64,000 bases of DNA from Simmondsia chinensis. Its lineage: Eukaryota; Streptophyta; Magnoliopsida; Caryophyllales; Simmondsiaceae. Below, one piece after another: positions 35,231 through 60,184 of this stretch. The DNA is taken from assembly GCA_018398585.1 (NCBI GenBank), contig JAGTTD010000022.1, positions 8,843,501 through 8,907,500 of the forward strand. The letters are read 5' to 3'. Position 1 is the first letter of the stretch; each line of letters opens with the position of its first letter. A program made the translations under genes and the position numbers. Below the pieces are notes generated by a model. It made no database searches, was not told where the DNA came from, and was given only the letters and a program-made list of their open reading frames with translations.

Positions 35231-36339
35231 CTCGTTTGGCTTCCAATCGAGCTTGTAATTAAGAAAAGTTTAAAATCTGGTTGTCGTGCTGCATTAGATG
35301 CTTTGCATTTGATTTGGTTGAATCAAATTCAACTAAATTGGGTTGTATTGTGTCAAGCTTTGGTGCTAGTTGCAATTAATCAACAAAAATAAGTTTTTTG
35401 TGCTGATTTGGTTCAGTTTGTGTGATCAAGAATTTAAATCTGGATTCCAGCTTGAAGAGCTTGTGTGCATTGTTAATTACTTCACATCCTACACATTGTT
35501 CGGGGATTGATTTCGGTTGGGATTAATTGATTGAGTATCATTGATATAAGCTTGGTTGATCGATTATCTGTGGATTTCAATCATCATTACTGCAGAATCC
35601 GATTGAATTCAGTAACGTGGATCAAGTAGTAGCTGTTGAAGTTGAGTGTTGAGCATATTTGATCTGTTGAAGCTAAGTGTTGAAGCTTAATTGATCTTGA
35701 TCAAATATTCATCCAATCAGTTAGAGACGAAGTTAAGTGAGCTATTGGATCAACATTACACTTGATCATAATCAAAAGCTCAGAATAACAAGCTAATTTC
35801 AGGTAGTTCTGATTCTGGCATTCATGTGAGAAGTGCAGGTAACTGTTTTCTGAACTTCAAGTTACATACTGATCAGAATCTACTTTTGGTTGCTGAATTA
35901 TGATGAAATTTGTGTTAATAAGCATAGAAATGGTAAGAATTCAGCTGATTCTTAGAAATTATATGATGTTGAATTGAGATTTGCTCAAAAGAGGATCTGA
36001 CATTAAATTGAGAACCGAAATTGTTGAAGTCTGATTTTATTCTTGAAGATTGCCTTGAGTATTGTGTTGAGGACTTGATTGCAGTCTAGAGTTGAGCCTA
36101 ATTCAAAATTGTAAGTCTGTTACTCAAGAAGCATCTCAGTTAGGGTTTGGTTCGAGTTCTCTGTGTGCGAAAATCTGCATATTAGGGTTGTACTCTGTGA
36201 CGGTTGAGGAGCCGTTAGCAAGTGATTGTTTGTGCAAGCAAGGGAGTATAATTTCTTTAAACAATCATCGGATGAAGTGATTCAAATCAAATTTTGTTCC
36301 TCTGCGATCTGAGTTGGTTCATATCTCTACGAACTGAGT
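35231..36339 (+). other. Leader of element A
   Basis: About 1.1 kb without a usable frame. It is conserved in F (56,068-57,150) and in the inverted fragment (7,110-7,800): the words TTGCTGAATTATGATGAAATT and AATAAGCATAGAAATGGTAAG recur. Short AGGTAAGG/CAGGTAACTG-like words around 35,838 and 56,581 would suit a splice donor, but no acceptor could be chosen. Confidence 0.55.
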
Positions 36340-37160
36340 TTGGTTCATATTGAAACGCTGCTTAACATTGCAAATATGGTTGGTATGGTTGATGATGGCT
36401 CATGTCGGTCCGTGATGAGGGATATTTTGGAGGAATGGAGGCAAGAATGTAGACAAGAATGCGAGAAGTTTTTGCAGGAATTGAAACTGGCAGTGGACCG
36501 AGTGATGCAGCTAAGTATGAATCAATAAGATTCAACTCATCAGTTTGCAAACATCAATCGAGATTGCGCTAGTGTTCTTGATGCAAATGAGTCCTCTGAG
36601 CTAATGGATCGAGTTATACAACAAGAGTTCAATGTTGAGCAAAAAGAGAAGGTTGAAGTGGAATCTGTTGCCGTTGAAGATGAGTTAGACCACGGTAATG
36701 CCGAAATTGATGAACACAAGTTAGAAGAATCTGAGGTTGAACGCATTGATCATGATGAAGACTCTTTGTGAGAGTTAGATCATTTTGAAGATGTTGAGCT
36801 ACAACAATATATGCTTCCGGAATGGGAATACGATTCATATGTCAAAGGAATGATGAAGAAAGCAAAGAGTAAAGTGAAGAGGAACCATCTAAACGAAGCA
36901 TTAAAGGATTTTTGGGGTAAAAAGAAGTTTACAAAGCACAAATTGAAGCGTGAGGTTGTGTGTCAGCCTAAGGTGCTTGAGAGTTTGCAAGAACAAAACA
37001 ATAGACAACCGGTAATTGCTGTAATTGAGTCCAAATCAAGTAAGGGACATTGGGATGGTCCACTAGAAGAAGTTAGGCAACAAGAACTAACTCAATCTCT
37101 TGATTTATCAATGTATATGCTAGTATACAAGGGTCGGATACAGCCGAATCTCTGATTTCA
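36340..37160 (+). pseudogene. Element A ORF1: acidic/basic protein
   Basis: Equivalent of 6,543-7,115 (minus). The first part (36,340-36,528) reads MRDILEEWRQECRQECEKFL, coiled-coil-like. The acidic part (VEQKEKVEVESVAVEDELDH, about 36,629) is broken by a stop at 36,768 (TGAGAG where the fragment reads leucine). The frame 36,811-37,155 then carries PEWEYDSYVKGMMKKAKSKV and DFWGKKKFTKHKLKREVV. The three copies agree best over the K-rich block. Function unknown; it takes the place where gag would be. Confidence 0.55.
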
Positions 37161-37299
37161 ACTAGGAAAGTTGATGTTACTGCTGTAGTAACAATGATAC
37201 CACCACAAAATGTCTTAAGCACTTCTCCAAGGCAACTTGATACTCCAAACCGGCATCTGATTTGTGCTGGCAGTAATGTACTTGATACATTGCAAGGTT

Positions 37300-37567
37300 C
37301 TTGGAGTGGAGAAATGGTGTATTCAAATACACACTTCCATGACAAGTTAGCTGCTGATCTAGGAGAGGATACTCAAGGTTTAGTGAAGCTGAAAGAGTTG
37401 ATTCCTTGATGAAACGAAGTAATCAAGCTGCCAAAGTGCGTTTTAAGGTTCAACAAAGGCGAAGCATTGTTTTTGTATAAGCAATTGAGTTGATGGAGGT
37501 GTACAAATTCAGTAATGTGCTAGAGCAGAATTCTTTTCAGACCAATGGCAATACAGTGGGTGTTTGA
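37300..37567 (+). pseudogene. Element A, conserved basic segment
   Basis: Broken stretch whose translation includes RVDSLMKRSNQAAKVRFKVQ (about 37,397), matched in F by RVESLLKRSTRAARVRFKVH (about 58,271). The two elements thus share this segment in the same order after ORF1. Stops separate it from the flanking frames. Confidence 0.5.
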
Positions 37568-38041
37568 CATGGTTCTTGGGCTGAAAGGAAGGTATTTCGG
37601 CCTGCAACCTCTTACGATCAGCTTCCTCCTGATCCAGGAAAGGTAGATCAAGATCATAACAAGCTGGAACACGAGGCTGAGCGGGAGAAAAGAGTCAATC
37701 CAACTGCCAAGGTGAATAGGCAGAAGCTTAACTTGATTTCTGGAAGAATTTTGTACATGTTAGAAGCTCACATGATGGGCACTGATATGAGAATTAAGTT
37801 TGATCAGCCAACATCTGGAAGAATTAAAGGTATTTGGGTTATGTTTGATTTGGGAAGGCCCCCTGAAGTGTTGATCGAATCTAGGTTCTGCATTTGGGTT
37901 GGAATGACAGTGCTGGACAGTAATGAGGCAAGTGCATTGAGCTTCAAATTCAGGTTGTGCATTAATCAAGCTATGGGCAAAGAACAAGCTCCATTAGCGC
38001 AACCAAATGTGAGACCTCCTGAGTTTAAAGTGAAAGTGTAG
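37568..38041 (+). CDS. Element A ORF2, 157-codon frame, unknown
   Basis: Open from after a stop at 37,565 to 38,041; a first in-frame ATG lies only at 37,760, so the start is unclear and the frame may be a fragment. Contains RPATSYDQLPPDPGK (about 37,608), which F keeps as SSYDKLPPNPGE (about 58,208), then a basic stretch (EREKRVNPTAKVNRQKLN) and MFDLGRPPEVLIESRFCIWVG (about 37,840). The block F-[DE]-x-G-x-P-P-E reappears in F at about 59,450. No known domain is recognised. Confidence 0.4.
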   Translation, partial: HGSWAERKVFRPATSYDQLPPDPGKVDQDHNKLEHEAEREKRVNPTAKVNRQKLNLISGRILYMLEAHMMGTDMRIKFDQPTSGRIKGIWVMFDLGRPPEVLIESRFCIWVGMTVLDSNEASALSFKFRLCINQAMGKEQAPLAQPNVRPPEFKVKV

Positions 38042-38119
38042 TATTTGATGAATGGGACACATTGAAAGGTTAAAATTGAGTAGTTCAGCCAGGAAATTGA
38101 ATCTATTGACAGGAACTCA

Positions 38120-38959
38120 ATGCCAGCTCACTTAGAGCAAGATTGGTGGCTGGAAAAGCTGAGAATTCAAGTTGTTTTTGAAGGAGATAGCTACAACAAC
38201 CTATTTGAACATAGAAAGTTCAAGATGGTCCAAACAAAAGCTGAAAGATTTGTGAACCATCTGAAAAATGAAAGCTGCGGAATTAAATCTGTCAATTGGG
38301 TTGCTTTGAGAATGGGAGCTTATGGTGTAATCTATGCAAGAATTTTGAGAGAAGAAGCTGAGATTTCCATATTACTTAAGTTACAATTCAAGATGTTTAC
38401 AACAGAATTCAAAGTAGTTGCTGAAAAGGCTTGGAGAATTACAATTCCTTCACTATCAGCAGTAAATGAGTTGTTCAAATGGAGTGTGATTGGTGCTATT
38501 ATGGCTTTGGGAAGATGTGTTAACTTGTTTGCATCAAGAAGCTTCCATATGGACAAGAATGGAGCTGAAATCTGTCATATTCGCAACTATGTTGTGTATC
38601 GGTTTAACGTTGCTGAATTTTTGAAGTTTGCAGCACATCATGTGGAATTGGAAAACAATCAAGTGTTTGTTGAGTGTAGTTTGATATGGTTTAGTAAGTG
38701 GATGTCTAAGCATTATAAAATTTGGATAAGATCTAAGATGAAATGGTTGCAGCTGCATTCTTATGGGATCTCAAGGTGTTTTGTTACCAAGGATAGGATA
38801 ATGGGCTGCTTTAGCTGCACTTGGGAATGTCTAAAAGCAGATTTTGACACTAGGTTCACTTGGTTTGAGTTGGAAGACCTCCATATGAGTGTTCTTCGTC
38901 AGATGCAAGCTCTAGTAACAGGACTTGGGCTGGAATACTACAGAATCTGCATCCTCTAA
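38120..38959 (+). CDS. Element A ORF3, 279-residue conserved unknown protein
   Basis: Longest intact frame of element A. Residues about 95-145 (EKAWRITIPSLSAVNELFKW, SVIGAIMALGRCVNLFAS, RSFHMD) align with F at 59,018-59,150 (SISILSITVVKEMFNGNVIG, AIMTFGRCHNLFSSSSFHMD). The next 60 residues also align (HVELENNQVFVECSLIWFSKWM with SVHLESNQGFIGHVMSWVGRW). Two cysteine/tryptophan-rich stretches are found towards the end. It has no polymerase, protease, gag or transmembrane hallmark I can name. The conservation between two diverged elements suggests it was once under selection, or simply shares descent. Function unknown. Confidence 0.5.
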   Translation: MPAHLEQDWWLEKLRIQVVFEGDSYNNLFEHRKFKMVQTKAERFVNHLKNESCGIKSVNWVALRMGAYGVIYARILREEAEISILLKLQFKMFTTEFKVVAEKAWRITIPSLSAVNELFKWSVIGAIMALGRCVNLFASRSFHMDKNGAEICHIRNYVVYRFNVAEFLKFAAHHVELENNQVFVECSLIWFSKWMSKHYKIWIRSKMKWLQLHSYGISRCFVTKDRIMGCFSCTWECLKADFDTRFTWFELEDLHMSVLRQMQALVTGLGLEYYRICIL

Positions 38960-39181
38960 TGTTCTGCTGCTGCTGCAATATTTCAGTAAGCTGGAGGCTC
39001 TCTTCAGTTACAGATTCAGCAAGGAATCCTCTTGGTTCTGCTGCATTTCAGAGTCACAGTCGCAACCTGGTTAACTCTTCACATAAGAAGCTCATTCATG
39101 CCTCCCACATAAACATTGATCTTCAAGTTCAACTCTTTTCTTTGATTCTTGGGGACAAGAATCTTTTAAAGGAGGGAGTAT
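38960..39181 (+). other. 3' end of A interior with pol-end relic and polypurine tract
   Basis: The frame here ends ILGDKNLLKEG. The corresponding ends are ILEDKNVFKGKG in F, ILESKNL in G and LEDQKVYKRRE in E. The purine-rich part (TTAAAGGAGGGAGTA, 39,166-39,180) is the polypurine tract. Confidence 0.65.
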
Positions 39182-39481
39182 TGTCATGTCCCGGGATTGT
39201 AATTGATTGTAATTGAATTTTGTGTTTTGGCGGGAAAATTTGTCAAAGTCGATTAGAGCTTGCATTAAGAAGTAATGTGTAAGATCTTCTATAAAAGATC
39301 TGAGATTGTACTTCCTTAATCATTCAATGAAAATATACAACCACCTCTTATGAGATATTTTCTCTCTCTCATCTAACTCTCTCTCTATTTCCTCAACTCT
39401 TTCCCTTCGTTCTCATCTCATACTCTCACCTATCTTCAATATACTTAGTTTGTGCTTTGTGATTCAATCACGAGCATAAAA
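39182..39481 (+). repeat. 3' LTR of element A
   Basis: 300 bp, TGTCATGTCCCGGG to GAGCATAAAA (terminal CA changed to AA). It has no solo-LTR insertion. The TATA region reads TCTATAAAAGATC. Confidence 0.85.
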
Positions 39482-39486
39482 ATGAG

Positions 39487-40400
39487 CAAGAGTTTCCCGA
39501 ATTTAAGGTTCGTGATATCATGGCAATCGTCTTTTAAGGGTGTTCTATCAATTCTCTTAGAGTTACCGATATCAGTGCTTTACTACCTGGTTCCTTTGAT
39601 TGTATACTAGGGTTAGCCATTTAAGCCTGACTGTTTTGGGTTTGCTTAACACTCTTCCATGGTATGGCCGTATAATTGATGGTAGCTACACCATTTTGAC
39701 TTCGCTTGTGGATTGAAAGGTCCTTTTGACTTGTTAGACGTTCTCTTAAAAGGAAAGGTCGACGTGTCGCATTTTTCTGTATTTCATAAGCAAAATGCCC
39801 CGCAGGCCTTTACACTTGTATTTTTGGTTTTAAGGTCGCGTTTGGAATCCTTGGCCTCGTCAAGTGAGACGTTTCTAATTTTTCTCGTGGCTTCCAAGTA
39901 ACTCCCAGCCATACCCATCCTGCCGTAGTCATAACATCCTCAACTAATATGTATTTGTTGGCTTTGTTCCATAGCTAATCAATGGTTTCTGGTTGCTTCT
40001 TAGCCAAGGAAAATTTAAAGTCTAAATATTTAAGTCCGTTGACGAAGGCACCAATGGCGATTTTGTCGGCTAATCCTGGTATATCTATCATTTCTCAAGT
40101 GAATCGCCTAACGTAGTCTCTCAAAATTTCGGATTCCTTTTGTTGTAACAGTATCAACTGTGTAGCCGTCTTTCTCCTCCTTTTATTACTTACAAAGTGC
40201 CTAGAGAAGCGTTCTGCTAATTGGGCAAAACCATCAATTGAACTAGGAGGTGAGGAAGAAAACCAAGATTGAGCCACTCCCTTTAAGGTGGCTAGAAAAT
40301 ATTTACGCCACACTTCCTCTGAAGCGTTTTGTATATACATCCTAGACTTATAGCCTGACATGATGGTCTTCAAGATCTTGAGATCGGTCAAAGAGGTCTA
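39487..40400 (-). pseudogene. Gag relic, element B
   Basis: The frame 40,391-40,095 reads MTDLKILKTIMSGYKSRMYI and WRKYFLATLKGVAQSWFSSSP, then FAQLAERFSRHFVSNK and QKESEILRDYVRRF: the retrotransposon gag core. Downstream on the minus strand (about 39,710-39,660) WCSYHQLYGHTMEEC is the zinc-knuckle type seen in Tat elements (C-x2-H...GH-x4-C). The region 39,487-39,660 leads towards protease and was cut by element A. Confidence 0.8.
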
Positions 40401-40896
40401 TATTGGGAATCTTAACTTTTTATGCCGGTAAAGGTAGAATTCTTAATTAAAATGGAGAGTACATACCCGGGACTTCAGGAATTGAGTAGATCATTGTTTC
40501 TTCTGAAGCATGAGTAAAATCTGGCTGAAATTTATGTACGTCCTTGATGTTAGTTGTAGATTTGTCCTCCATACTATCCTGGTCCATCCCTAGGTTTTCC
40601 AAATTTTTGTTGTCACGATTGGGTTCACAGTGTTAAACTTTTTTTTTCCATATTTTTTCCTTTTGCTGAGGTTCATGGGCTTAATCATGCTTGACCCCTA
40701 GTAACCTTACTTTTTAGGGCCTGAGTTTACTTCAGGCCTTTGTATTATTAATTTTTTCACAAGTTGTTCTAAAACCGTTTGTATGTTTTGGAGTTGGTTT
40801 TTAAGAACATGTTCGATTTCACTATCTTGAGTTGGGGGATCCAGGGATCTCGATAATTCGGCCATATCGTGACTTTCCCAAAGAAGCCGCCAATTA
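40401..40896 (-). other. Leader and primer-site region of element B
   Basis: On the minus strand the LTR end is followed by TAATTGGCGGCTTCTTTGGG (40,877-40,896). TTGGCGGCTT... is in the position of a primer-binding site and resembles the TGGCGxC class, but I cannot name the tRNA. The rest has pieces of the gag start, including a polar stretch. No intact frame. Confidence 0.5.
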
Positions 40897-41917
40897 TGTT
40901 CGTGGTGTTTATAGGTGTTTCGGAAGAAGCTAAACTCAAGCTACTTAAAGATTATCGAGATCCCCGTTATCCCTTGGTTTTTTTACCTCCTTCCATTTTC
41001 CCGTTTCTCTATTTATAGCGGTAGGATAATATTTTTAATGTTTGGATAAGTGTCCTTTTCCTTTTCTTTCAAATTAAGTTTCTTTTATTATTATTTTTTA
41101 AATATATCTTAAAAGAAGTGAAAATGGATAAGTTCACTTTGTTTGGTCACTATATGGGTGAATTGCATGGATTTTTACCCCACTGTTGAATAATGTCATT
41201 ATTTACCCATACTGGACAAATAATTTTATTTTTTTTACCTCTACTAGACAAATTGTGTTGATTTTTCTCCTACTGGGTGAATAATTTTTTTCTTCCCCCT
41301 CTACTAGGCGAATTTTGTTGATTTTTCTCCTACTGAGCAAATAACATTGTTCTTTTCCAGGGCAAGTAAGTCTATTTTTTGCCTCTATTTGGCTGTGTTG
41401 ATTTTCTCCTACCGGGCGAATAACTTTTTTCTTTACCCCTACTGGGCCAATAATGTTGCTTTTTGCCTCTACTGGATGAATTGTGTTGATTTTTTTCATA
41501 CTGGGCGAATAACATTGTTTTTTCACCCCTACTGGGTGAATAATATTATTTTTTACCTCTACTTGGCAAATTGTGTTGATTTTTCTTCTACTGGGTGAAT
41601 AGCATTGTTCTTTACCCCTACTGGGCAAATAATGTTTTTGCCTGTACTGGGCCAATTGTGTTTATTTTTCTCCTATTGGACGAATAACGTTGTTCTTTAC
41701 TACTAGCGAATAATGTTGTTTTTTACCTCTGTTGGGCAAATTGTGTTGATTTCTCTCCTATTGGACGAATAACATTGTTCTTTGCCCCCTACTGGGCGAA
41801 TAATGCTGTTCTTTGTCTCTGCTGGACAAATAATGTTGTTTTTTACCTCTACTGGGTGAATTGTGTTGCTTGTTCTCCTACTGGGCAAATTGCAATAATT
41901 ATTCTGAATTGCAAACA
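40897..41917 (-). repeat. 5' LTR of element B
   Basis: 1,021 bp, TGTTCGTGGTG to TTGCAAACA. It holds the same tandem repeats as the other LTR (about 41,160-41,890). On the minus strand, the sense of B, the 60-bp unit equals 20 codons, so long repeat-encoded frames stay open (41,655-41,203 and 41,888-41,703); they are not matched by open frames in the other LTR. Confidence 0.85.
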
Positions 41918-41922
41918 GAATC
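41918..41922. repeat. Target-site duplication of element B, right copy
   Basis: GAATC, identical to 20,370-20,374. Confidence 0.9.
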
Positions 41923-43112
41923 TACCAAAAATAATGTCCCCATAGTAGATTCTCAAGTATTCGAATATATTTGAGAGATTTTGGCCAGAGCATTGCTTAT
42001 GTTTGACATTTGGATTTAATGCATAAGTGTTTTTCTATGTTAGTGAATTGTTCGAGAAAGGGCAAACTGGGAACTAAGAAGGTAAAATGAGAAATAATAA
42101 TAATCTTAGTTTGAGTTAGTTTTTAGATTAACATTTCATAGAGGGATTAATTGTGAGTAAACTATTGCAAATGAATAAATATAATTACCACTAGAGTGTA
42201 GTAAAACTTATTTAGCGGAATTAAATTTTATTAAATGGTAATCAAATGTTATCATGCGATAATAATCATATTTGACTCATTTGGAATTAGAAATAAATTG
42301 TCCCCAAGGTCCCTGCCCAAGCCTTTAATTTATTCACCTAAAGATATCAAGAAAATTCATGAGATGAATTACATATTTAAGAGCGGAATAAATTGTTTTC
42401 TTTAACACAAAAATCCATGAGATGAATTTGTACAAGAAAATTAAAAAAAAAATAAATACGAAAAATAATGGCATAGGCCCATCAAAGTGATAATGAGCGT
42501 GATCCGCGCCTCACGGCACGGATCACTTAGGGCTTGCCACATGATTTAAAACTGTGCAATTGTTTTATTTGTATTTGGATTTGGATAATTATTTTTTTTA
42601 TGTTTTGACCTATCAAAAATACAATTTTTTTTGTATATTATATTTTAAATTTTGTGGGTCATTTTTAGGTTCCTGTAAATAAGGGAGTTTGTTTAATAAT
42701 TTCTACTTAGTTTGTATTCCAATTAATTAGAGAATTAAAAAGGAGAAATTCACTCTTCAAAATAATTCTTGAAAATTTGTGTGTTTTTTTTTTTTTAATG
42801 AATTACTTGATTTCACGACATGCACACGTTTGGTGCCTAAGGGGAATTGTGGAGAAGATTTTGAAGGTATTGTTGGAGCATCTTTTCACTTGCGGTCTAC
42901 AATAAGGCATGAGATTTCTAGAGTTATACTTTAAATTCATATTTAATTATTTTTTCATCAGCATGTCATATATTCTATGCAGTGTTATATCTATTTGGAG
43001 TTGAAAACTTTTACATTTTTTAAATTGTGAATTTTAAATCATAATTCTGCTGCACTACTTATTATCATTGTATGTAACTTTATTTTGTTAAATTAAAATT
43101 TCCCAGCCAACA
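41923..43112 (+). repeat. 3' LTR of Copia C1, second part
   Basis: Resumes at TACCAAAAATAATGTCCCC, matching 1,450-1,470 of the 5' LTR, and runs to AGCCAACA. Together with 19,775-20,374 it restores a full LTR. No gene. Confidence 0.85.
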
Positions 43113-43117
43113 GGGAC
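43113..43117. repeat. Target-site duplication of Copia C1, right copy
   Basis: GGGAC, paired with AGGAC at 852-856. Confidence 0.6.
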
Positions 43118-43262
43118 AACAAGAGTCAACGCCATTCGAGCATGGATGCACCGCCATGCACCGGTCGGAAAGCTGCTGATGAGCCTCATGCGTCGCCCAC
43201 ATGGGCCATTTTCTAAGAGTTTCTCTCACTAGTTTCTCTCTAGAAGTTGCAAATGAGCTCCC
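43118..43262 (-). mobile_element. LINE 5'-end fragment, right part
   Basis: Continues the LINE-like sequence of 283-856. GTTTCTCTCTAGAAG and CAAATGAGCTCCCC match 15,994-16,026 of the intact LINE (GTTTCTCTCTCTAGAAG, CAAATGAACTCCCC). Its 5' end is at about 43,262. Confidence 0.5.
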
Positions 43263-43972
43263 CACTTTGTTGATCTTGCACATTTAACCCATAGTAAAAC
43301 TTTTGAGGAAGTTGCTACTTAGGGATAGAATGATGTGGATAAGCTCTCAAGGGTCCCTAAAATCCAGGCCAACTCCCATGAAACTAATCATTAGGAAGTT
43401 GAGAGAAGGTATTAATGGCTCTATTAGCTATGTTGGTCTTACTAATGGGGTAGAAGTTCTTAAGAAATTCTTGTTGCATTTTGGCCTATGTACTAGCATT
43501 CTCACTAGTAAAGTGACTAACCAATGCATCCTTCATAGAAAAATAAAAAAAGGGGAACTAGAAGGCATTATCTCTAACATCATGGAGCTTGAAGGTAAAG
43601 CAAACTTCCATGAAACTGCCGAATGTTTGTGTGGGTTTTCATTGCCTAAGCCTTAGATTGAAGGGAGCATTAGTATAGTGTTTGGCTTTAGCTCAAACTA
43701 TTAGGTCATGGGTGGCAACCTAATGCACGAAGGTGAGGCGTATGTAGTGAGAGTGAAGCACTCTATAAGGGCACTGCATTGTTGTTATTCGTCCATCATT
43801 GCCAAATCAGGGTTAGCATTGGCAGTTTATGACTCTAAAGTAAAGAAAACAATCAAATAAACAAAACAGAAAGCATAAAAACTAAGACAAATAAGAAGCA
43901 AAAACTGGAAAAGGTCCTACGCTAAAAATCGATAAAAAAATCATGAAATGAACCCCCTATATGTTGCTTAAT
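43263..43972 (+). other. Unassigned stretch with a 117-codon frame
   Basis: The frame 43,303-43,656 contains SRPTPMKLIIRKLREGING, which resembles the S/T-R-x-R/P-x-x-K-L-R/Q-E-x-x-N tail found at the end of some plant Gypsy gag-pol proteins. It is otherwise unlike any domain I know. The frame may be a retroelement remnant. 43,660-43,972 shows no gene. Confidence 0.3.
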
Positions 43973-44082
43973 CCCTGACAACATTGCCAAAATCTTTATG
44001 TGTTTTTCTATGTCAATCAGAATTTAATGTAAAACCCTATCCAGTAAACACATCTCAATTCAAGTCTGGGGCAAGAGGGTAT
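43973..44082 (-). repeat. Antisense Athila-like LTR end with primer site (remnant J)
   Basis: CCCTGACAACATTGCCAAAAT resembles the reverse complement of an Athila-type primer site (GGCAACGGCGCCAAAA), so an antisense LTR probably starts right after it. It is interrupted by element G at 44,083 and appears to resume at 46,560 (GTGTCGATCACAGGAACTAAG) and again after element H at 55,066. The opposite end of this LTR was not found. Confidence 0.35.
44078..44082. repeat. Target-site duplication of element G, left copy
   Basis: GGTAT here and GGTGT at 46,560-46,564, four of five bases. Confidence 0.65.
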
Positions 44083-44534
44083 TGTTATGATTGTGATGAT
44101 AGTGAAAGGTAGTAATTAATCTTTAGTAATGATCTAGTCGAATATGGTCTTGTATTGGTTTAGTACTTGGTCAAATGTTAGTTAAGTTGTTAGTATTAGT
44201 CTTTTTTTGCGGGCTTCGTTGAGAGCCGGTTAGTATTAGTCTTGGTGAGTCTTCCATGTATAGGTGAGTCTTCTCTTGTAATTGAAAGGATGAATAATGA
44301 AATGATCACTTCCTTCTCTTGATCTCTCAATTCTCTCTAAAGTCCTAACAAATATCTTCTCTTCTCAATTCTCTTCTTCAATCTCATCTCAATTCTTCTA
44401 TTATCTCTTCTCGATCTCATCTTATTTTTCTAGTCTCTTCTTAACCTCCAGATTCTCTCATCTAAATCTCTAATTCAAGTGCAATTCACCTTCAAACCCT
44501 AGGTTACGACTAACGTTGAGCTTGAATCATAAGA
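44083..44534 (+). repeat. 5' LTR of element G
   Basis: TGTTATGATTGTGATG to GAATCATAAGA. The TATA region reads CATGTATAGG, while the 3' LTR keeps TATAAATA, so this copy has lost the box. The CT-rich block TCTCAATTCTCTCTAAAG precedes the 3' end. Confidence 0.85.
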
Positions 44535-44536
44535 AA

Positions 44537-44550
44537 TCATATCAAAAGCC
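44537..44550 (+). other. Degenerate primer-binding site of element G
   Basis: TCATATCAAAAGCC stands where TGGTATCAGAGCC is expected; it differs by two G-to-C/A changes at the start, one further G-to-A change and one inserted A. Confidence 0.5.
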
Positions 44551-45003
44551 TTGATTTGCTTCCAAATCAAGTTAAATTGGTATCAAATTTTCATCAATTT
44601 GTGTTGATCAATTAAAAGAAAAATATAGATCAGCTAGTGCATAAGATCAAGTTCGGAAAAAAAAAAAAAAAAAAAAAAATTTCTTGCTGCAGTAACATTG
44701 AAGCTGAGCTTGGGTTGGTGTTGACCAAGGACTTGTTCAGTTTTGGTTCAGATCATGGTAGCAAACAGAATTCAGAACTGATCAAGCTCGAATTGAGCTT
44801 AGCACGGCAAATACCTACTATATAGAATCCAGAGCAAACAGAGTTGAATTCAGTTGATTTGTTCTAAGAAGTTCTAAATTGAAGTGTTGATATTGAAATT
44901 AATCAAGGTATTGAGCTGAAATGTTTAGGTTTTTCTCACTGCTACCTTGGTTTAGCTCACGTTTCTGACAGTGCAAATTGAAACTAAATTTTAAAGAATT
45001 CTG

Positions 45004-45870: not shown

Positions 45871-46103
45871 AGGAAAGTACTGTGGGCTCTCTGCACCAGA
45901 TTGAGAATTCAGAAATCAAAACTTGAGTCGCTGCATCTGGCTGCTATTCCCGCATCATCACCACCCAGCAGCATCTGGTTGCTTTTCTTGCTGCAAAATC
46001 AGAATCAACCTCATTTTTAGCTACAATTTCAAAGTTTAAGCATTAATAAGTGTTCTTCAAGTCTCAATCCTCCCTAATAAGATTCTTGAGAGCAAGAATC
46101 TCT

Positions 46104-46559: not shown

Positions 46560-46564
46560 GGTGT

Positions 46565-49062: not shown

Positions 49063-49068
49063 AGTTTT

Positions 49069-50174: not shown

Positions 50175-50179
50175 GAATT

Positions 50180-51113: not shown

Positions 51114-52142
51114 AATCTAGGTTTTATTGGCCTACACTCTTTAAAGATGCTTTTAAATTTGTTAGTAAATGTGATCGATGTCAATGAACATGTAACATTT
51201 CCAAGAAACATGAAATGCCCCTAAACAACATTTTGGTTGCTGAATTATTTGATGTTTGGGGGATTGATTTCATGGGTCATTTTCCCTCGTTATTTTCTAA
51301 CAGATTTATTTTGGTTACTGTAGATTATGTGTCAAAATGGGTCGAAGCAGCTGCTTTTTCGACCAATGATGCTGGAGTTGTAGTAAACTTTGTTAGAAAA
51401 AATATCTTCTCTCGATTTGGAACCCCTATTGCAATTATAAGTGATGGCGGAAAATATTTTCGTGACCACTAACTTAAAGCTTTATTGAGTAAGTATGGGG
51501 TCACACGCCATGTGGGTGCTCCATACTATCCTCAAACGAGTGGACAAGTGGAAGTTTCAAACCGAGAATTGAAAATTATTCTAGAAAAAATAGTTAGTGC
51601 CTCTAGAAAGAATTGTTAGAAAAAGTTAGACGACGAACTTTGGACATATAGAACAGCATTCAAAACACCTATTGGAATGTCTCCATATTGATTGGTTTAT
51701 GGCAAAGCATGCCATCTACTAGTAGAATTCGAACACAAAGCATACTGTCCATAAAAATCTTAAACTTTAATTTAGCAGCTGCAGGCAAAAAGAGGTTACT
51801 ACAAATCAATGAGATGGATGAGTTCAGAAATGATGCTTATGAAAATGCTCGAATTTACAATGACCGAACCAAAAGATGGCATGACAAGCACATTTTGAAC
51901 AAAAAATTCGTAGTGGGACAAAAGGTTTTACTGTTCAACTCCCGCTTACGACTTTTCCCAGGAAAGTTGCGCTCTCGATGGTCAGGACCCTTTATTGTGA
52001 CCCGTGTTTTTCCATATGGCACGGTTGAGATTCAGGATGAGAAAAAGGGTACTTTCAAAGTCAATGGGCAAAGACTGAAACCTTACATTGATGGAGAGGT
52101 CGAACCGCAGAAAACTTCCATTCATCTCAACAATGTCGAATG
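51114..52142 (+). pseudogene. Integrase, element H
   Basis: The zinc-binding CxxC is C-D-R-C at about 51,171. The catalytic residues are intact by eye: D in [10 protein letters not shown] (51,266), D in ISDGGKYF (51,443) and E in [10 protein letters not shown] (51,551), with 35 residues between the last two. The frame breaks at 51,471 and 51,618. The frame 51,688-52,143 covers the C-terminal part (KRWHDKHILNKKFVVGQKVLLFNSRL, then KLRSRWSGPFIVTRVFPYGTVEI). No envelope-like ORF follows. Confidence 0.85.
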
Positions 52143-52143
52143 A

Positions 52144-53815
52144 TCCACTTAGGGAGTCGAGCTAACGACTATAACAAAAGCGCTTTTTGGGAGGCAACCC
52201 AAGTGTTTCTATCCTTATTTATCCTATTTTTCCTTTCATTATTTTTATTTGTCTCATGTTTGTGTTTTTTTTATTCAACAGGTAGTTTGCAACAAGTTTG
52301 GGGGTAGGACAATGTCAACATGCACCATCAAAAAGCAATCCTCAAACCTGGGAAGTATCGCTCACCCAATTTATCTTTTTAGTTCTTTTTTTAAAAAAAA
52401 AAAGTTTTGGCAATAAATTAAAAAAAAATTTTACAAAGTTTATTTGAAAAGTTTTCATGCTTTATGTTTTAGAGTCGGCTTAAGTGTCTCCCAGAGTTCG
52501 GAGCCTTTGTATGGGGATGTAAATAGTGTTGGCCAATAAAAAAAATGTCTATTTCTACATTTTTAATCATTAGTTTAAAAAAACAATAAATAAATAAATA
52601 TAATTTAAAAAAAACCCCCGCATGTTTTAAAAACTTATCATCATGCTTTTTGGGGAATTTTCTACTTTTTCTTAGCTCGTTACTTTAATTTGATTTGAAT
52701 AACCTAATAACCAATTATTTTTGTGTTCTAATTGCGAAACAAGATCTAATTTAAGGCATTATCTTGATAGAACAGGGGTATTTGAGTTCAATTATTAGCA
52801 TAGTTGTTTTACTTTTCCTTTTTACTAAAAGATGCTCAAATTTGAATAGGTTGCATTAAAGATTATCATATTTATAATGAACTTTGAAGAGTTATGCCTG
52901 AATCTAAAGAAAAATATAATAAAAATAGAAGAAGAGAATAACTAAGCACCGCTATCCCTTTAAAAACGTTTGGATATGTGCTACGGTGTGATGGTTTCGT
53001 GCCTTGGTACCCCGAGCAAGTAGATCCGTAGGGGTGTTTCAACACCTAGTACCCTAGGCCAACTGGAACGGGGAGTTGTCGCATTGAAAGCTCGCTAGAA
53101 GGGGTACTTTGAAAGCTAACAAGGAACCAAGCACCAAAAAAAAAAAAAAAAAAAAAACGAAGAAAGAGGAAATCATCTCTAGCACCGCTATTCCATTTAT
53201 AAACAACTTTAAAATATATGCTACTCGTTAAGAGGGCGTCTCAGTGGTGGCTTCTCTTACTTATGGGTCATCGCTCAGGAATCGAAGCTTGATTCTCACT
53301 ATAGATATACTTGGGAAAGTCATAAAGAAGGAATCTCAATGGTGACTTCTCTTACTTATGGGTCATCGCCCAGGAGTCGGAGCTTGATTATCACTGATGA
53401 TGTACTCATGAGCCGGGAATGACTTGAGCAAATAAATTCCTCACAAAAAAAGTTCAAAAAACAAAAGAGAAAAATATAAGAGAATATTTAGTCTTGGGCA
53501 TACTTGATAAGCTTTGTTACAAGCGGTATTATTTATTGTCCTCTATTCGGTTTGAATGTCTTGAGATTTAAAAGAATGAGTAAACTTAATTTGCTGTCCT
53601 AACTTTTAAATCTCAGTTATCTAGGTAATTGACAGGTTTTTCCTTAGAAAAGATGATTTTGCCTTTAGAACCCTGGACATTGATTTTTGGTTGTTTTTTC
53701 TAAATTGAAGCACACTTGCTTTGAACTGTACTAAAATTCTTTAAAAGCATGAGATCTGGTACTGAAAAGTTCAACCTTGCTCGAAGACGAGCAAGATTTA
53801 AGTTTGGTGGTATTT
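52144..53815 (+). other. Post-pol region of element H (no gene)
   Basis: The first 60 bases carry AGCGCTTTTTGGGAGGCAAC, the standard sequence after Athila pol. The rest is AT-rich with a 22-A run at 53,136. A short direct duplication is present (GCTTCTCTTACTTATGGGTC at 53,239 and ACTTCTCTTACTTATGGGTC at 53,338, followed by matching CGGAGCTTGATT-type words); a weaker CGCTAT...ATATGCTAC repeat occurs at 52,938 and 53,189. The purine-rich AGTTTGGTGGTATTT (53,801) precedes the 3' LTR. Athila elements often have an envelope-like ORF here; none is seen. Confidence 0.6.
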
Positions 53816-55065
53816 TGATAAGTCTAAATTAGTATATAGTTTTTTATATTATTTGAATATTGTTTTTAAACATTTTACATCAATTTTTCATCACTTTTGC
53901 TCGGTTTCGCTCTATTTCAACCATTTTGCTTTTTTTATTGTAAAAACACCCATTTTAAGCTAACGCTTGCTAGATTTTATTATTAACATCAAAAAGTAAA
54001 AGCAAGATACATCAAAACACACAAAAGTTTACGATTGCAGCAGAAAAAACTAGAAAATTACATATTTTTCACTTGCAACTTGCATTTATGCAGCTCTAAC
54101 ACAATTTTTTAACAAAATTCATTGTACAAACAATACATTAACATGTCCAAGTTGATGTAAACTTTGAATTTAGGTAATGCAAAGCTCAAAAATCTGAAGG
54201 AAATCAGCCAAAGAACAGCAAGAACAGAGAAGTGTAACTTGCTTAACCAAGCCATTTCAACTTGCAATTTTGGGTGGCAAAATGGACAAATAACATGAAA
54301 GAACTTCTTGAGCACTTCATTAACATGTTCAAGTTGATGTTAAAGCTAGTTTTGGGCGGTACAAAGGAAGAAAAAAAATGAAAAAAATAGAGTTGAACGG
54401 CCATTGCAGAATCTGGGCAGCTGGTGCAGGTGGTGGTGCAATCAAATTCAAGCTTCATTTTTGCAGTAGAAACTCAATGATTTTTGCCCAAATTCGTTTC
54501 ATAAACATAATTTTACATGCCTTAAGTCATCTTTTGCAAAATTTGGGAGGTGAAGTACAGAAACAAATGGAAAAAATGGGTGAGGAACACCACTTGCAGC
54601 TGCAGAAAATCAGAAATCTGTGCACAACTTGCTTACTTTCTTCACTTTGAGTGGCTACATTATGAAATATTTTAGCTCAAATTTATTGCATACACCTTAT
54701 ATTACATGCAAATGATGATTTTGAGTAGAGTTTGGGCGGTAGAATGTAAAACAAATTGAAGAAAAAAGAGCAAGAGCAACAGCTCAGAATCATCCTGCAA
54801 CAGCTCGGATGCCTTAGACTGTATAAACTGATAAAAACCAATAGAAATCGGCTCACTCTAATCTCGTTTCAACTTTTATTTCTTTTCATTTTATTTTACT
54901 TTATTTCATATCAAAATCCTAAAGTTTTCGGTCTTTCAAATAGTATCGAAGCTACTAATTTTGGTATTCACTCAATCCGATCCACGTAGGAACGATACTC
55001 TGCTCACTTCTATATTACTTGGTATGACTTGTGCACTTGCTAACACATACGTAAAGTCTGCATCA
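53816..55065 (+). repeat. 3' LTR of element H, internally deleted
   Basis: TGATAAGTCTAAATTAG to CTGCATCA, 1,250 bp. It matches the 5' LTR but lacks about 740 bp; the break lies at about 54,800 (CAACAGCTCGGATGCC, against 48,048 and 48,793 of the 5' copy). Confidence 0.85.
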
Positions 55066-55070
55066 TAAAT

Positions 55071-55291
55071 CATAATACTTGACTATATTTCTTATAATCA
55101 AGCAATTCATGTAACACAATCAAATTATCTAAAAATAAGAGTAATACAATAGCAAAAGGACTGAGACTTTATCGTAACCTATATAGCAAGTTATCTTTCC
55201 ATCAAGGATGAACCAGTGAAGGAGGAGATGACTAAGCCTGTGTCAATCATTGCACTAATCTTGCTCATGTTTTGATGAGGAAAAAGGAAAA
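55071..55291. other. Flank between element H and Copia I
   Basis: Continues remnant J after the H insertion (CATAATACTTGACTATATTT...). No gene. The 3' side is cut by the LTR of Copia I at 55,292. Confidence 0.35.
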
Positions 55292-55621
55292 TGTTGGCCC
55301 TAAAGGCCACTTACATTGAAATTTTGATGATAAAAATCATTTAGTGAGTCATTACGTTTAAATTGTTGTAATCTTTTTAGTTAAGTGACTTGGGAGAAAG
55401 CTAGGAAAAACAAGACTAATCATGTTGATACAAAGCTTTCTAAGATGATAAATCAAGAGGAAAAGAGATCAAAGATGAAGAGAAGATTCATCTAAAATGA
55501 AGAAAATGAGATCTGAGTCCAAGCGCTTTAAGTCATTTATTTTTTATTTTCTAGGACTTAGGATCGGGATATATCAATTAATTCAAAATCTCAATATCAA
55601 TATGTGATGCTCCAATAAAAA
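55292..55621 (+). repeat. 5' LTR of Copia I, first part
   Basis: Starts TGTTGGCCCTAAAGGCC, with ATTTTGATGATAAAAAT near the start. It is cut by element F at 55,622 and continues at 60,612. Confidence 0.7.
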
Positions 55622-56053
55622 TGTTACAAACCGAGAATCCGAGGCTTGGGTTTAAATTGGAAATGACGGGAATATGAATTGGTGTTAAAATTCAGTTAAA
55701 TTCTGAACTGCATTTCACTCTGCTGCTGCTACGTGGTGCTGCTGGTTACTGCTGCTGTTAGTTACTGATTTTTAGGCAATAACATTAATACATTTAAATA
55801 CTAGTTAGTTAGAATATGTTCTAGATTGTTCTTAGTGGTTTGCCTTGCTTAGATTGTTATAAATAAGTGAAGGATGTAATGGTTCAAGCATTCAATGGAA
55901 AGTAAACAAAATCAATCTCATTTGAGATTAAACTCTATTTACTCATCCCCTTCCCTTCTTTCTCTCATCTAAACTCTATATTCTTTCTCAGCTCATATTC
56001 TCACTATCCCAACCAAGGTTAAGTTTCAAGACCTAATCTTCGAAACCTTAACA
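55622..56053 (+). repeat. 5' LTR of element F
   Basis: TGTTACAAACCGAGAATCC to AACCTTAACA. It has TGCTGCTGCTAC-rich words, a TATA box at 55,858-55,865 and a CT-rich 3' third. Confidence 0.9.
55858..55865 (+). promoter_or_regulatory. TATA box in the 5' LTR of F
   Basis: TATAAATA, 236 bases into the LTR, equal in position and sequence to the box of element E. Confidence 0.5.
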
Positions 56054-56055
56054 AT

Positions 56056-56067
56056 TGGTATCAGAGC
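56056..56067 (+). other. Primer-binding site of element F
   Basis: TGGTATCAGAGC, perfect plant initiator-Met type site, two bases after the LTR end. Confidence 0.9.
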
Positions 56068-57151
56068 CTTGATTTGGCTTCCGAATCAAGCTCATATCTA
56101 GAAAAAAATTATAAAATCTGATTAATTGTGCTGCAATTAATCAACAAAAGAAGGTTGTGCTGATTTAATTCAGATTGGTGATCAGAAATTTAAATCGGAA
56201 TTGATTAAGGAGTTTTGGCGATATTGCATCAGTTGCTGCTTAAACCTGGGAAGATTGCTTTCGGTTGGGACTTTGAGTGACCATATTATATTGAAGGAAG
56301 TTCAATTCATCAGTATTTGTTGAGTACAATCAACATCAAGTTGATTCAGATTGAAATTCAATAGCATCGATCAAGCATTTGCTGCATAAGTGGAGAAATG
56401 AAGTAGTTGCAGTGCTGAAAATTGATGCTGAGCCAACTTGATCGATCATCCATTGATCGGTTGAGAAAGAGGTTGTGAATTGAGCTATATGATCCACATT
56501 ATACCTAATCATCATCCAAATAGCAGAAATCATCGGAATGGAGGTGATTACAGATGTTGCAATTCGGATGTCGAAGATTAAGGTAAGGGTCTACTGAACT
56601 TCAAGTTGCAATTCATTGAAAATTCGTGCTTGTTGTTGGATGATGTCGAAATTATGTTGCTAAGCATAAAGTAGTGAGAATTCATCAGAATCTAAGGTGA
56701 TCTTTGAGAATTATATGCTGTTGAGTCGAGATTTGCTTAGGCGGAAAAAATTGTCAGCAAAGGCGAAATCTGACAGGAAAAGCGGAAGTGTTGGAACCCG
56801 ATTTTGTTCATTGAGATCGCTTGAGTGTTGTGTTAAGAACTTCATTTTGAGTTAGAGTCAAGCCTAATTCAGAAGTGTGAGTCGATTTACACGACTAAAA
56901 CGTGCTTGTCAGAATTCATTTGGGTTAGGGTTTGTTTGACGACTTGTTCGAAATTTATCAGATAGGGTTTATATTCGTTGGCGATCATAGAACCGATAGC
57001 AAGGGATGGTTTGTGCGAACAAAGGAGTATAACTTCATAAATCAATCGATTGTTGAAGAGTTGCAAAACAAGTTTGATACTTCTGCGAATTTCGCTATTG
57101 TACTCTGCGAAAGTGCTGATTCTAGATTGAAGTTGTTGTTCATTTGCAAAT
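56068..57151 (+). other. Leader of element F
   Basis: About 1.1 kb, alike in sequence to the leader of A (GATGTCGAAATTATGTTGCTAAGC at 56,641 is the counterpart of 35,900). The frame 56,932-57,159 lies in its last part and ends at the start of the next ORF. No product recognised. Confidence 0.55.
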
Positions 57152-57930
57152 ATGGCTGATGGAGAGAGAACTAGATCTGAAGTTGGTGTAAATGTTATGA
57201 TCGGATCTCAGAATGCTACTAAAGAAGACCTTCAAGATTTAAAGAAAGTTTTTGATCAAAAGATGGATCAAATTCTGTCATTGTTAATAGGCAAGGATGC
57301 AAAAGGAAACAAAGGGGCAAGGTCGGTTGCAACAAATTGAGATTGTTCCACCTACGGAAGTGGTTCGACCGCAAGAGTTCGTGGTTGAGCAAAAAGAGGA
57401 GGTACCATCTGTTGTCGTTGAAGATGAACTCGACCATGACAATGCCGAAATTGATGAACACAGGCGTGAAGAACCTAAGGCTGAACAAGATGATTCTTGT
57501 GAAGACTCTTTGTTGGAGTTAGAGTATCTTGATGACACTGAGGTAAAACATGACATGCATCCGGATGGGAATATGATTCACATGTCCGAGGAATGATTAA
57601 GACAACAAAGAGTAAGTCGAAGAGAAATCGTTTAGGTGAAGCATTGGAAGATGTTGTGGGTAAAAAGAAGTTGTCCAGGCCGTAATTGAAGTGAGAGGTT
57701 TTGTTTCAACCTATGATGCTGAATGATCAGCAAGGACTAACTCAAGATGCTGATCTTACCGATGTAAAGGCTGGTATACAAGGTTTAGGTGGTATACAAG
57801 GAGTGGTGACTGCGGAATTTGTGATTCCAACTGATGAGGTCAATGCTACTGCTGTGATAGCAATTAATACATCATCAAATCGGTTAGGAGATGCTCCATG
57901 TTCAAGTTTATATGCAGAACCATAGTATTT
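57152..57930 (+). pseudogene. Element F ORF1: acidic/basic protein
   Basis: The frame 57,152-57,340 starts MADGERTRSEVGVNVMIGSQ and has a coiled-coil-like segment (DLKKVFDQKMDQILSLL). Shifted by one base it continues in 57,297-57,596 with VEQKEEVPSVVVEDELDHDN and AEIDEHRREEPKAEQ, the acidic region also found at 6,543-7,115 and 36,620-36,780. After a stop at 57,594 the basic region is decayed (KSKSKRNRLGEALEDVVGKK-type, about 57,610); 57,701-57,925 is the next shared block (LNDQQGLTQDADLTD). Function unknown; it takes the gag position. Confidence 0.55.
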
Positions 57931-58073
57931 TCATTGCTGTGCATGGTTTTTCTGTTGAAGAACCTGTTGTGGTCACTGCAGTACCTACAAATACAGATTC
58001 AGGTATGTTCAAGTTCATCTTTGGGTGTGCTGTTGTGCTATCCCGGATCCAGAGCGCCATTATATAGGATGCC

Positions 58074-58415
58074 TTGCAAGGTCTCTTGTGTTGGGAGGTT
58101 GTTTATGCACTTAGAGCCGCTGAATTATACTTTCGGCATGCCGATCGGCAAGTTCAGCATGAGTTATTCCTTTATGTGAGTAGAATTATGACTTGTCCAA
58201 GTGCAAGCTCCTATGACAAATTACCGCCTAATCCGGGAGAAGGTTCTCGAGGCTATATGAAGCTGAGAAGAGTCGAATCCTTGCTGAAAAGAAGCACTCG
58301 AGCTGCGAGAGTGCGTTTCAAGGTTCACAACAAACAAAGCTTGTTTCCTTTTCTAGCAATGGAGTTGATGAATGTGCACAAAGGTTGTAATGTGGGAAGA
58401 CAGACCTCTGATTAG
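58074..58415 (+). CDS. Element F, 113-codon frame with conserved basic segment
   Basis: Contains YFRHADRQVQHELFLYV (58,127), SSYDKLPPNPGE (58,208) and RVESLLKRSTRAARVRFKVH (58,271). The last two have clear partners in element A (SYDQLPPDPGK, RVDSLMKRSNQAAKVRFKVQ), although in A the order is reversed. The first recurs in F itself at 59,907. No known domain. Confidence 0.4.
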   Translation: MQGLLCWEVVYALRAAELYFRHADRQVQHELFLYVSRIMTCPSASSYDKLPPNPGEGSRGYMKLRRVESLLKRSTRAARVRFKVHNKQSLFPFLAMELMNVHKGCNVGRQTSD

Positions 58416-58475
58416 ATCCACATCAATACACTGGGTGCTTTAAATGATGTAATTGATGATGGCAATGAATCACAA

Positions 58476-59378
58476 GTGATGGGAAAAGCTGGTCTGGTGC
58501 TGTTGTTTGATGAAGAACAATTATGTTCCAGTGCAAGCTATGATAAAAGTATGGTAATAGCTAGGGGTCAGGAAGAGGTTAGCATCAAAGTAAGCCTTGA
58601 GGGAAAGGATTATACATGTTATAGGCTGCAAAACTCAGATCGTGACACTGAAGTCTCACTTGTTCCGAAATGGGCGTTGTTTCGGCTCAAACACAAGCAT
58701 TTCCTTGAAGGGATGGAAGTTGTTGTTAGTTGGTGGTTTGAGAATATGTTGGGCTACTGGAATGATTGTAACAAGCTGGAGCATGGGGCCGAGCTGGGGG
58801 AAAGGTTCGAGCAAGCTGCTAAAGTCATTCTCCGAGTCCAATGTGGGCCAAGATTGATCACCGAAAGTTCAGAACTCTGGCAGCCCTACATCTCATTACA
58901 GACTTATGCAGTTGTGACCTGTGTGTGCTTAAGTTGTTGGGGCAAAAGTTCAGAACCTGAAGCAAAAGTCACAAGTGCTCAACTGTCAAAAAGGGGACAG
59001 CAAGAATGTAAGATTGTGGCTAAAAATTCTAGGAGCATTTCGATTCTTTCAATAACAGTAGTAAAAGAGATGTTCAACGGCAATGTGATTGGTGCTATCA
59101 TGACCTTTGGAAGATGTCATAACTTGTTCTCATCAAGTAGCTTCCATATGGATGTACACCGAGTTGCAATATGTCACTATGAGTTGCATCTGGTTTGTAC
59201 TGCTGAGCTTGTGGATTCTGCAACAACTTCGGTGCATTTGGAAAGCAATCAAGGATTTATTGGTCATGTCATGAGTTGGGTTGGTAGGTGGTTGTGTGAG
59301 CTGAATTTTTTGAAAATCATTGCAGAAGGACACATTAATTCATCAGGGAATCAAGTTCCAGTAGCAAATATGAAATAA
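58476..59378 (+). CDS. Element F ORF3, 300-residue conserved unknown protein
   Basis: Longest frame in the element and without stops. GTG precedes the first ATG at 58,479. Residues about 185-245 (SISILSITVVKEMFNGNVIG, AIMTFGRCHNLFSSSSFHMD) align with ORF3 of element A, as do the following 40 residues (SVHLESNQGFIGHVMSW). The N-terminal half has a Trp-rich stretch (VVSWWFENMLGYW) and no partner in A that I can align. No catalytic motif, membrane segment or zinc finger recognised. Function unknown. Confidence 0.5.
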   Translation: MMGKAGLVLLFDEEQLCSSASYDKSMVIARGQEEVSIKVSLEGKDYTCYRLQNSDRDTEVSLVPKWALFRLKHKHFLEGMEVVVSWWFENMLGYWNDCNKLEHGAELGERFEQAAKVILRVQCGPRLITESSELWQPYISLQTYAVVTCVCLSCWGKSSEPEAKVTSAQLSKRGQQECKIVAKNSRSISILSITVVKEMFNGNVIGAIMTFGRCHNLFSSSSFHMDVHRVAICHYELHLVCTAELVDSATTSVHLESNQGFIGHVMSWVGRWLCELNFLKIIAEGHINSSGNQVPVANMK

Positions 59379-59407
59379 TTCTATTTTAGAGCTGTTCAAA
59401 CTGCGTT

Positions 59408-60184
59408 TTGGAATGTTTTCAAGCTAAATTCAATAGTTGGTTCTCTTGGTTTGAGTTTGGAGGGCCTCCCGAACTGTTAAACGACTTCAAAAGCAATTTG
59501 GTATGGTTCATGGCATTCCAAGTCAGTTGTATAGCAATCCCCGAGCAGGAATATAGCAGTCCTGATATGCTTTGTGACACTCAGCAGGAAGATGGACTTT
59601 TGAGCTGTGTTAAGGGCAACGAGACGAGTTGTGGGTGTGTTGTTGACATGTGGTTGATCAATACAGACCTCAGGTACCTGCTGCATTACAAATCTAGCTA
59701 CAAGTATGCAATCCCAGAAGTTCTTGGAGTTCATCACCATCAGCTTCAACTTCTACCTCTACATCAAGAAGATTGTCCACGTCCTGTTTGTTTGAATGCT
59801 CAAACTCACAACATCCAAATGTTTGATAAAAATAATGTTGCAAGCTTTGTCATTGCTGCAGAGCACATTGGTTTAGCCAGAAATCAGATTCCAGTAACAA
59901 ATATGCAGTGTCGGCATGCCGATCGGCAAGTTCGGCATGATTTATTTCTTTTCTGGAAAAGAGATTTGATTAATATGGACCCTATCATGAGGCTATGCTA
60001 TTGGGAGGATGTTTGTGAATTGTTCATAAAGATATACTGCATTAACAAGCTCTCCTCAGCTGTAAGTTTACCGCAATCTCAGAAAATCAGTCAGTTGCAA
60101 TTCCAGCTTGAAGTCATCGCATCAACTTCAAAGTCTCATCGTCTTTCATTCTTGAGGACAAGAATGTGTTCAAGGGGAAGGGAA
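59408..60184 (+). CDS. Element F, 3' frame with W-F-E-x-G-x-P-E block and pol-end relic
   Basis: The frame 59,408-60,229 runs into the 3' LTR. FSWFEFGGPPELLNDF (about 59,441) is similar to MFDLGRPPEVLIES in A (37,840) and to FTWFELEDLHMSVL near the end of ORF3 in A (38,857). RHADRQVRHDLFLFW (59,912) repeats the block at 58,130. The end (about 60,150-60,184) reads ILEDKNVFKGKG in another frame, the pol-end relic and polypurine tract. Function unknown. Confidence 0.4.

Follow-up and report, generated by a model that had tools for sequence, protein, structure and literature searches.

Large non-autonomous elements with long terminal repeats (LTRs) are usually regarded as non-coding passengers. 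The large retrotransposon derivatives (LARDs) combine LTRs, a primer-binding site (PBS) and a polypurine tract (PPT) with an interior of about 4 kb that holds neither gag nor pol; they depend on a helper, and the interior is described as non-coding. Also non-autonomous are TR-GAG and other TR elements, with two LTRs flanking one open reading frame (ORF), which in TR-GAG encodes a recognizable GAG (PMC9784723). Here we describe two elements, A (34,347–39,483) and F (55,622–60,611), both on the plus strand of a 64,000-nucleotide stretch of the Simmondsia chinensis genome (contig JAGTTD010000022.1, positions 8,843,501 to 8,907,500; hereafter the window, numbered from its first letter). They are genuine non-autonomous LTR elements of a multicopy family and are similar to LARDs in their LTRs, PBS, PPT, size of the interior, absence of gag and pol, and presumed dependence on a helper, but their interior does not answer to the description of non-coding, since a stop-depleted frame spans most of it. 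Unlike the ORF of TR-GAG, this frame of almost 900 codons has no Pfam match at cut-off and is weakly constrained. It is long, common to the subfamilies, depleted of stop codons and phased by long shared indels, and its amino acids are weakly constrained; we suggest that the element depends more on translation itself than on the protein that results.

One long frame in a multicopy family

A preliminary description of the locus, made from its letters alone, had recognized three shared coding blocks, namely an ORF in the gag position, a basic block and a larger ORF. Their homology at the DNA level is real: self-comparison of the window and tblastn relate the gag-position block among A, F and a minus-strand fragment, and the larger ORF between A and F. 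The blocks are not separate genes, however, but parts of one frame of about 850–990 codons that extends from the gag position almost to the 3' LTR. Searches of the host genome (831 Mb in 35 contigs; all match counts are lower bounds) returned at least 40 scored places out of 1334 candidates with a 301-base probe of the larger ORF of A, at least 127 matches with a 488-aa frame as query (88 of 3337 candidates scored), and at least 42 matches in 40 scored of 1466 candidates with a probe of F. Many copies share the blocks in the same order and without similarity to gag or pol, as the preliminary description had expected of a functional element protein. The A-type copies L009–L028 and the F-type copies L052–L071 were chosen by DNA probe and are not biased to intact frames; L027, L029 and L031, which serve as references, were picked for long frames, and L029, L030 and L031 came from a protein search, as did the pieces L032–L051, a kind of search that favors intact frames.

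The frame is best seen in the copies that have kept it almost whole. All three blocks of L029 fall within a single frame that has one stop in 874 codons, about 640 of which make up the middle and the tail after the gag-position part, and in L031 the same frame has 3 stops in 852 codons. Among F-type copies, L072 has 3 stops in 986 codons, its frame extending into the LTR, and L074 has 3 in 890, from just before the start of the gag-position part to 246 bases before the 3' LTR, while the other two frames over these four stretches hold 45–85 stops. The last 553 codons of L073 are open, with a frame change upstream of them, and one copy of 460 aa passes from the gag position through an internal deletion to a chromovirus-like end, all in phase. 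The gag-position part consists of an acidic segment followed by a basic one, which may be helical. Only this frame is open among the six; the five others have 4–8% stops, on which ground an antisense or overlapping gene was rejected.

Stop codons and amino acids

When 25 other sequences are compared with L029 as reference, stops make up 0.7% of this frame and 6.6% and 9.0% of the two other plus frames, and when the substitutions of 24 sequences were randomly re-placed, with base and CG/CHG context kept, 293 stops were expected where 83 are observed. Since this expectation assumes no selection on any branch, neutral evolution was simulated on a tree whose root sequence was open, for the A type with the DNA-chosen copies plus A, F, L029 and L031 (22 sequences in the tail; 60 runs each). 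The A-type tail has 46 stops, against 201±42 simulated with a midpoint root and 108±17.5 with the root most favorable to neutrality (minimum 72 in 60 runs); without L029 and L031, 42 stops stand against 174 and 89±13. For the gag position, 38 stops compare with 74±17 and 58±11, and for the middle 33 compare with 65±14 and 60±13, one run going down to 26. The F-type tail (20 DNA-probe copies and F) holds 5 stops in 5428 codons, against 99±28 or 59±12.6 simulated, with a minimum of 28 in 200 runs under the most conservative root. It is thus in the tail that depletion clearly goes beyond neutral decay; in the gag position and the middle it does so modestly. Projected on 58,416–59,375, 15 of the 20 F-probe copies have no in-frame stop and five have one; read straight through, with frame shifts not followed, 14 of 20 have at most one.

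Constraint on the amino acids is a different matter. Initial ratios of nonsynonymous to synonymous rates (dN/dS) among A, F and the fragment did not separate the frames, and maximum-likelihood ratios (omega) and random-placement tests were used instead. Measured against L029, the gag position has a median omega of 0.54 (16 copies), the middle one of 0.67 (19) and the tail one of 1.16 (23). At 20–30% divergence, 23 middle-and-tail pieces have codon-position rates of 0.240/0.251/0.249, and median omega over 139 pairs is 0.85. F-type DNA alignments give 0.61–1.3 (median 0.76, 13 pairs); they replaced protein-guided alignments (0.35–1.14), which were discounted for distant pairs as partly non-homologous. 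The chromovirus integrase of the same genome, treated by the same method as a control, has rates of 0.27/0.16/0.55 and a median omega of 0.05 (17 comparisons, several of them saturated). Context-dependent mutation (CG, CHG) does not account for the flat codon-position rates, and a surplus of changes at second positions of tail codons became small once corrected for context. The expectation that many copies would have dN/dS below 1 was therefore borne out weakly for the gag position (median 0.54) and hardly for the larger ORF (1.16, 0.85 and 0.76 in the three comparisons).

The replacements themselves point the same way. Seven deep pairs have, in the core of the tail, 137 synonymous changes, 402 replacements and 6 stops against 143, 438 and 44 at random, and the replacements are as radical as random ones (BLOSUM -0.46 against -0.47±0.07). 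For the tail of L029, compared with 20 sequences (18 DNA-chosen copies, A and F), the counts of synonymous changes, replacements and stops are 327/1064/16 against 350/980/89 at random, and for the F type 90/232/1 against 88/255/20; the integrase control has 212/119/4 against 87/266/20. Synonymous changes exceed random in the middle (281 against 234) and in the gag position (273 against 222). Tail replacements are near random in number and radicality, and it is mainly the stops that are missing.

Long indels respect the frame where they are shared: among those of at least 9 nt common to two or more copies, 14 of 15 rows are multiples of three (about 12 distinct events, 11 in phase), compared with 22 of 37 single-copy indels of that size.

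Structure of the elements

The complete LTRs, primer sites and polypurine tracts attributed earlier to A and F were confirmed, and the two have what defines a non-autonomous LTR retrotransposon, namely paired LTRs, a PBS, a PPT and a target duplication. The primer site TTGGTATCAGAGCC lies directly 3' of the 5' LTRs and, like TGGTATCAGAGCC in A, is of the tRNA-iMet type; a purine-rich tract lies directly 5' of the 3' LTRs. Target duplications, read by eye, are 5 bp long with one mismatch each (ACGAG/ATGAG in A, AAAAA/AAAAT in F). In A, the 5' LTR (34,347–35,218) carries a 576-bp insert at 34,440–35,015 and matches the 3' LTR (39,182–39,483), found by self-comparison, in two pieces of 81.6% and 92.1% identity; the PBS TGGTATCAGAGCC is at 35,219–35,232, and the PPT AAAGGAGGGAGTAT at 39,168–39,181, immediately 5' of TGTCATG. 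Around the insert there are inverted repeats (34,441–34,627 and 35,055–35,216). The LTRs of F are 95.4% identical, its PBS TTGGTATCAGAGCC is at 56,055–56,068, and its chromovirus-like 3' end with the purine tract (CTTGAGGACAAGAATGTGTTCAAGGGGAAGGGA) at 60,142–60,184.

Both window copies of the frame are interrupted, that of A by stops and two frame changes and that of F by several frame changes. The gag-position part of A (36,313–37,155) is divided by stops at 36,526–36,528 and 36,769–36,771 into three stop-free pieces of the same frame, and is 73% identical to another copy at the protein level (tblastn, 270 aligned positions). Beyond one frame change the frame continues at 37,104–37,409, as found by tblastn with the L029 frame, and beyond a second one follow the basic block and the middle part (37,358–38,041), in pieces separated by stops. 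The larger ORF of the preliminary description (38,084–38,959) is the tail of the frame, without 177 bp (59 codons) near 38,310 that roughly half of 20 other copies possess. In F, tblastn places the gag-position part at 57,131–57,925 in pieces offset by frame changes (57,131–57,340, 57,291–57,596, 57,554–57,685 and 57,695–57,925), the middle part and larger ORF at 58,068–59,378 (58,068–58,415 and 58,416–59,378, in the same frame with one stop between them), and the 3' part of the frame at 59,390–60,229, extending into the 3' LTR. The minus-strand fragment at 6532–7811, with 190 unbroken codons at 6,543–7,115, shares the gag-position block and belongs to the family as had been proposed; it holds only the 5' part and that block.

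The earlier statement that A and F have no gag, protease, polymerase or integrase agrees with the domain searches, in which no Pfam cut-off was reached by 10 blocks of the window, 10 frames of other copies or 3 more, and in which reverse transcriptase, RNase H or integrase was detected in other fragments. The 3' end resembles that of chromoviruses (Ty3/gypsy), with 41 bases matching one neighboring chromovirus 3' end at E=8e-5. What the family shares with chromoviruses is this 3' end and the purine tract CTTGAGGACAAG..GGGAATGTTATG, where 33 of 41 bases agree with the chromovirus end in L031; what sets it apart is that no gag, protease, reverse transcriptase, RNase H or integrase was found in it. 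From the absence of visible enzymes together with the chromovirus-like end we infer a chromovirus helper, and the family is probably of a non-autonomous Ty3/gypsy type mobilized by chromovirus proteins. In L031 (reverse strand, 1300–1840) the family interior comes immediately after a chromovirus 3' end and an LTR-like stretch, and the 3' LTR is of another type; this copy is possibly a recombinant element.

Where two LTRs were recognized, the LTR pairs within copies mostly differ by 3–8% (one piece of A by 9.7%), compared with 6–28% between the interiors of different copies, so that most of the divergence predates insertion and arose in active lineages. F-type and A-type tails look mosaic in the alignment of L052–L071, L027 and L029, the ends of the frame having seemingly been swapped between subfamilies. 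Three F-probe matches about 4.4 kb apart (G000:C35:18401930, 18406405 and 18410822) are consistent with a tandem array sharing LTRs. The main copy of L024 repeats the match pattern of L023, and L024 was omitted from most counts. L010, a near neighbor of L009, was omitted from the shared-stop, tree-simulation, indel, context and 20-sequence L029 replacement analyses and kept in the per-frame stop rates, the L029 omega table and the random-placement count. Alignment pieces shorter than 80–150 bases and copies with few usable codons were left out, and the omega tables count pairs above set codon numbers.

Other features of the window

The tandem-repeat arrays at 20634–21344 and 41202–41890 share a unit like TACTGGGCGAATAA, and further arrays lie at 23,337–25,987 and 29,604–30,149. 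On the minus strand, 14506–15441 is an ORF of 312 aa with DUF4283 and a weak zinc knuckle, as in plant LINE-type elements. An Rfam search of the window gave no relative.

Discussion

The best reading of these results, which we hold with a confidence just short of even, is that selection keeps the RNA of the element translatable, for example to escape nonsense-mediated decay (NMD), the host's RNA quality control. What selection would see is mainly the passage of ribosomes along the RNA to near its 3' end. If the RNA of the element carries one frame over most of its length, an early stop would leave much of the RNA untranslated on its 3' side and could lead to NMD, and decayed RNAs would not persist for packaging and copying; stops would be harmful wherever a long untranslated 3' part results and harmless near the end, and the product of the gag position may have some weak function besides. 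Stop depletion does fade toward the 3' end in the last bins of two of the three references (0.46 and 0.63; 0.6 and 1.67). In plant reporters, long 3' untranslated regions (UTRs) trigger NMD and a single-ORF virus with a short 3' UTR escaped it (PMC6173133, PMC5031192; see also PMC12259633). The more specific proposal that the almost-900-codon frame is kept open as a ribosome path protecting the RNA, with the protein tail as a by-product whose sequence hardly matters, is one that we advance only tentatively. The preliminary description had spoken of conserved proteins; given the weak omega results this overstates the case, and what is conserved is mainly the open frame.

Several results weigh against the view that translatability is what is selected. 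Omega is below 1 in many comparisons, including 12 of 13 F-type pairs; replacements in the middle and tail of the deep pairs are fewer than random (702 against 834); and they are milder than random in one tail set (-0.31 against -0.43±0.06) and in the middle (-0.26 against -0.45±0.05), so that some amino-acid constraint exists. Codon-position composition is slight in the middle and tail of L027 (p=0.017) and present in F-type pieces, 10 of 12 at p<0.05 and 5 of 12 at p<0.001, these being related copies and not independent. The phase of the indels does not extend to all sizes: with L029 as reference, multiples of three are 6 of 26 shared indels against 20 of 86 (p=1.0), and other all-size sets give 4/8 against 7/37 (p=0.085), 3/6 against 15/46 and 2/6 against 6/31; several of the small shared indels are adjacent pairs of deletion and insertion that cancel. 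Within the A subfamily, stops are less often shared in 6 of 7 comparisons, significantly so in one (p=0.01; 0.18–1.0 in the others), and in L029 depletion does not fade in the last bin (0.22). Transcriptome-wide studies, according to the NMD review, found little trend for long 3' UTRs (PMC6173133).

The strongest competing explanation, a live if lesser possibility, is a real but fast-evolving element protein, such as a polyprotein of Gag-like or accessory kind that makes few demands on its sequence, from whose frame stops are purged for the sake of a full-length product. The gag-position part fits it, with a strong coding pattern in the codon-position composition of L029 (chi-square 71, p=3e-13) and an omega of about 0.5, as does the F-type tail, whose omega is about 0.76 and which has some of that composition; a mild preference for conservative replacements in parts of the L029 comparison can be added. 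For the gag-position protein encoded by the 6.5-kb fragment, AlphaFold2 (AF2), given three relatives from the window as well, predicted a helix pair at low confidence, with a mean predicted local distance difference test (pLDDT) score of 52 and about 74 in part of the helices. The A-type tail fits such a protein poorly: its omega is 0.85–1.16, replacements are as radical as random in the deep pairs and in the F type, and the integrase of the same genome displays what strong constraint looks like. Codon-position composition is absent from the L029 tail (p=0.34) and small in its middle (p=0.02), so that the tail resembles sequence in which one frame has been cleared of stops; F-type tails have some coding character. 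No homologue turned up in the libraries searched: besides Pfam, a search of solved structures with one query gave a best E of 0.28, and a large protein collection gave no match at E 0.001 for two queries, an absence that is weak since the collection may hold few plant proteins.

It is improbable that the frame is an inherited relic, that is, that an open ancestor such as a worn-out gag-pol has since decayed neutrally. Stops shared within one subfamily are hardly depleted and all-size indels have no preference of phase, as such decay would lead one to expect, but tail stops are 2 to 12 times fewer than neutral decay of an open root sequence would leave, even under the most conservative rooting, long shared indels are in phase and different subfamilies keep the same frame; the 5 stops in 5428 codons of the F-type simulation set largely contradict it.

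A captured host gene carried by the element, which the preliminary description had raised, is less probable still. Other plant LTR elements do capture genes, and the frame has no similarity to retroelement proteins; yet every probe returned the multicopy family, the frame stays in phase all the way between the gag position and the chromovirus-like 3' end, and the L029 tail has no codon composition. A host-gene match outside the repeat family was found neither in the protein collection, which perhaps holds few plant proteins, nor among the best-scored candidates of the host's own genome, and capture is accordingly not supported. Chance or an artefact of sampling is hardly credible, for L027, L029 and L031 were indeed picked for long frames and L032–L051 came from a protein search, but the depletion is found also in the DNA-probe copies L009–L028 and L052–L071.

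Stop depletion and amino-acid constraint are decoupled in the dozens of copies examined, and this decoupling offers a natural test of whether NMD shapes parasitic retrotransposons. It also counsels caution in two directions: a repeat may hold a long open frame without encoding a conserved protein, and a dN/dS near 1 is not proof that translation is lacking. Among the titles and abstract openings listed by searches of the open-licence literature, none reported a non-autonomous element whose frame is depleted of stops and free in its amino acids.

Two further systems invite comparison. Retand elements are also Ty3/gypsy elements with unexplained additional ORFs, which differ in being antisense, in lying between pol and the 3' LTR and in carrying, in most cases, a TRP28 domain (PMC11963269). 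The frame of the A/F family is sense and occupies the place of gag-pol. The defective RNAs of clover yellow mosaic virus and of a coronavirus reportedly keep a long fused ORF, and their accumulation is said to depend on coding capacity; if so, they too are parasitic RNAs whose accumulation is tied to the capacity to be translated. The parallel is not a general one, since plant defective RNAs, according to one review, mostly consist of noncoding parts and remnants of disrupted ORFs (PMC9786237). The setting differs as well: those are viral RNAs in infected cells, whereas the A/F family consists of genomic retrotransposons that have kept their frame over evolutionary time.

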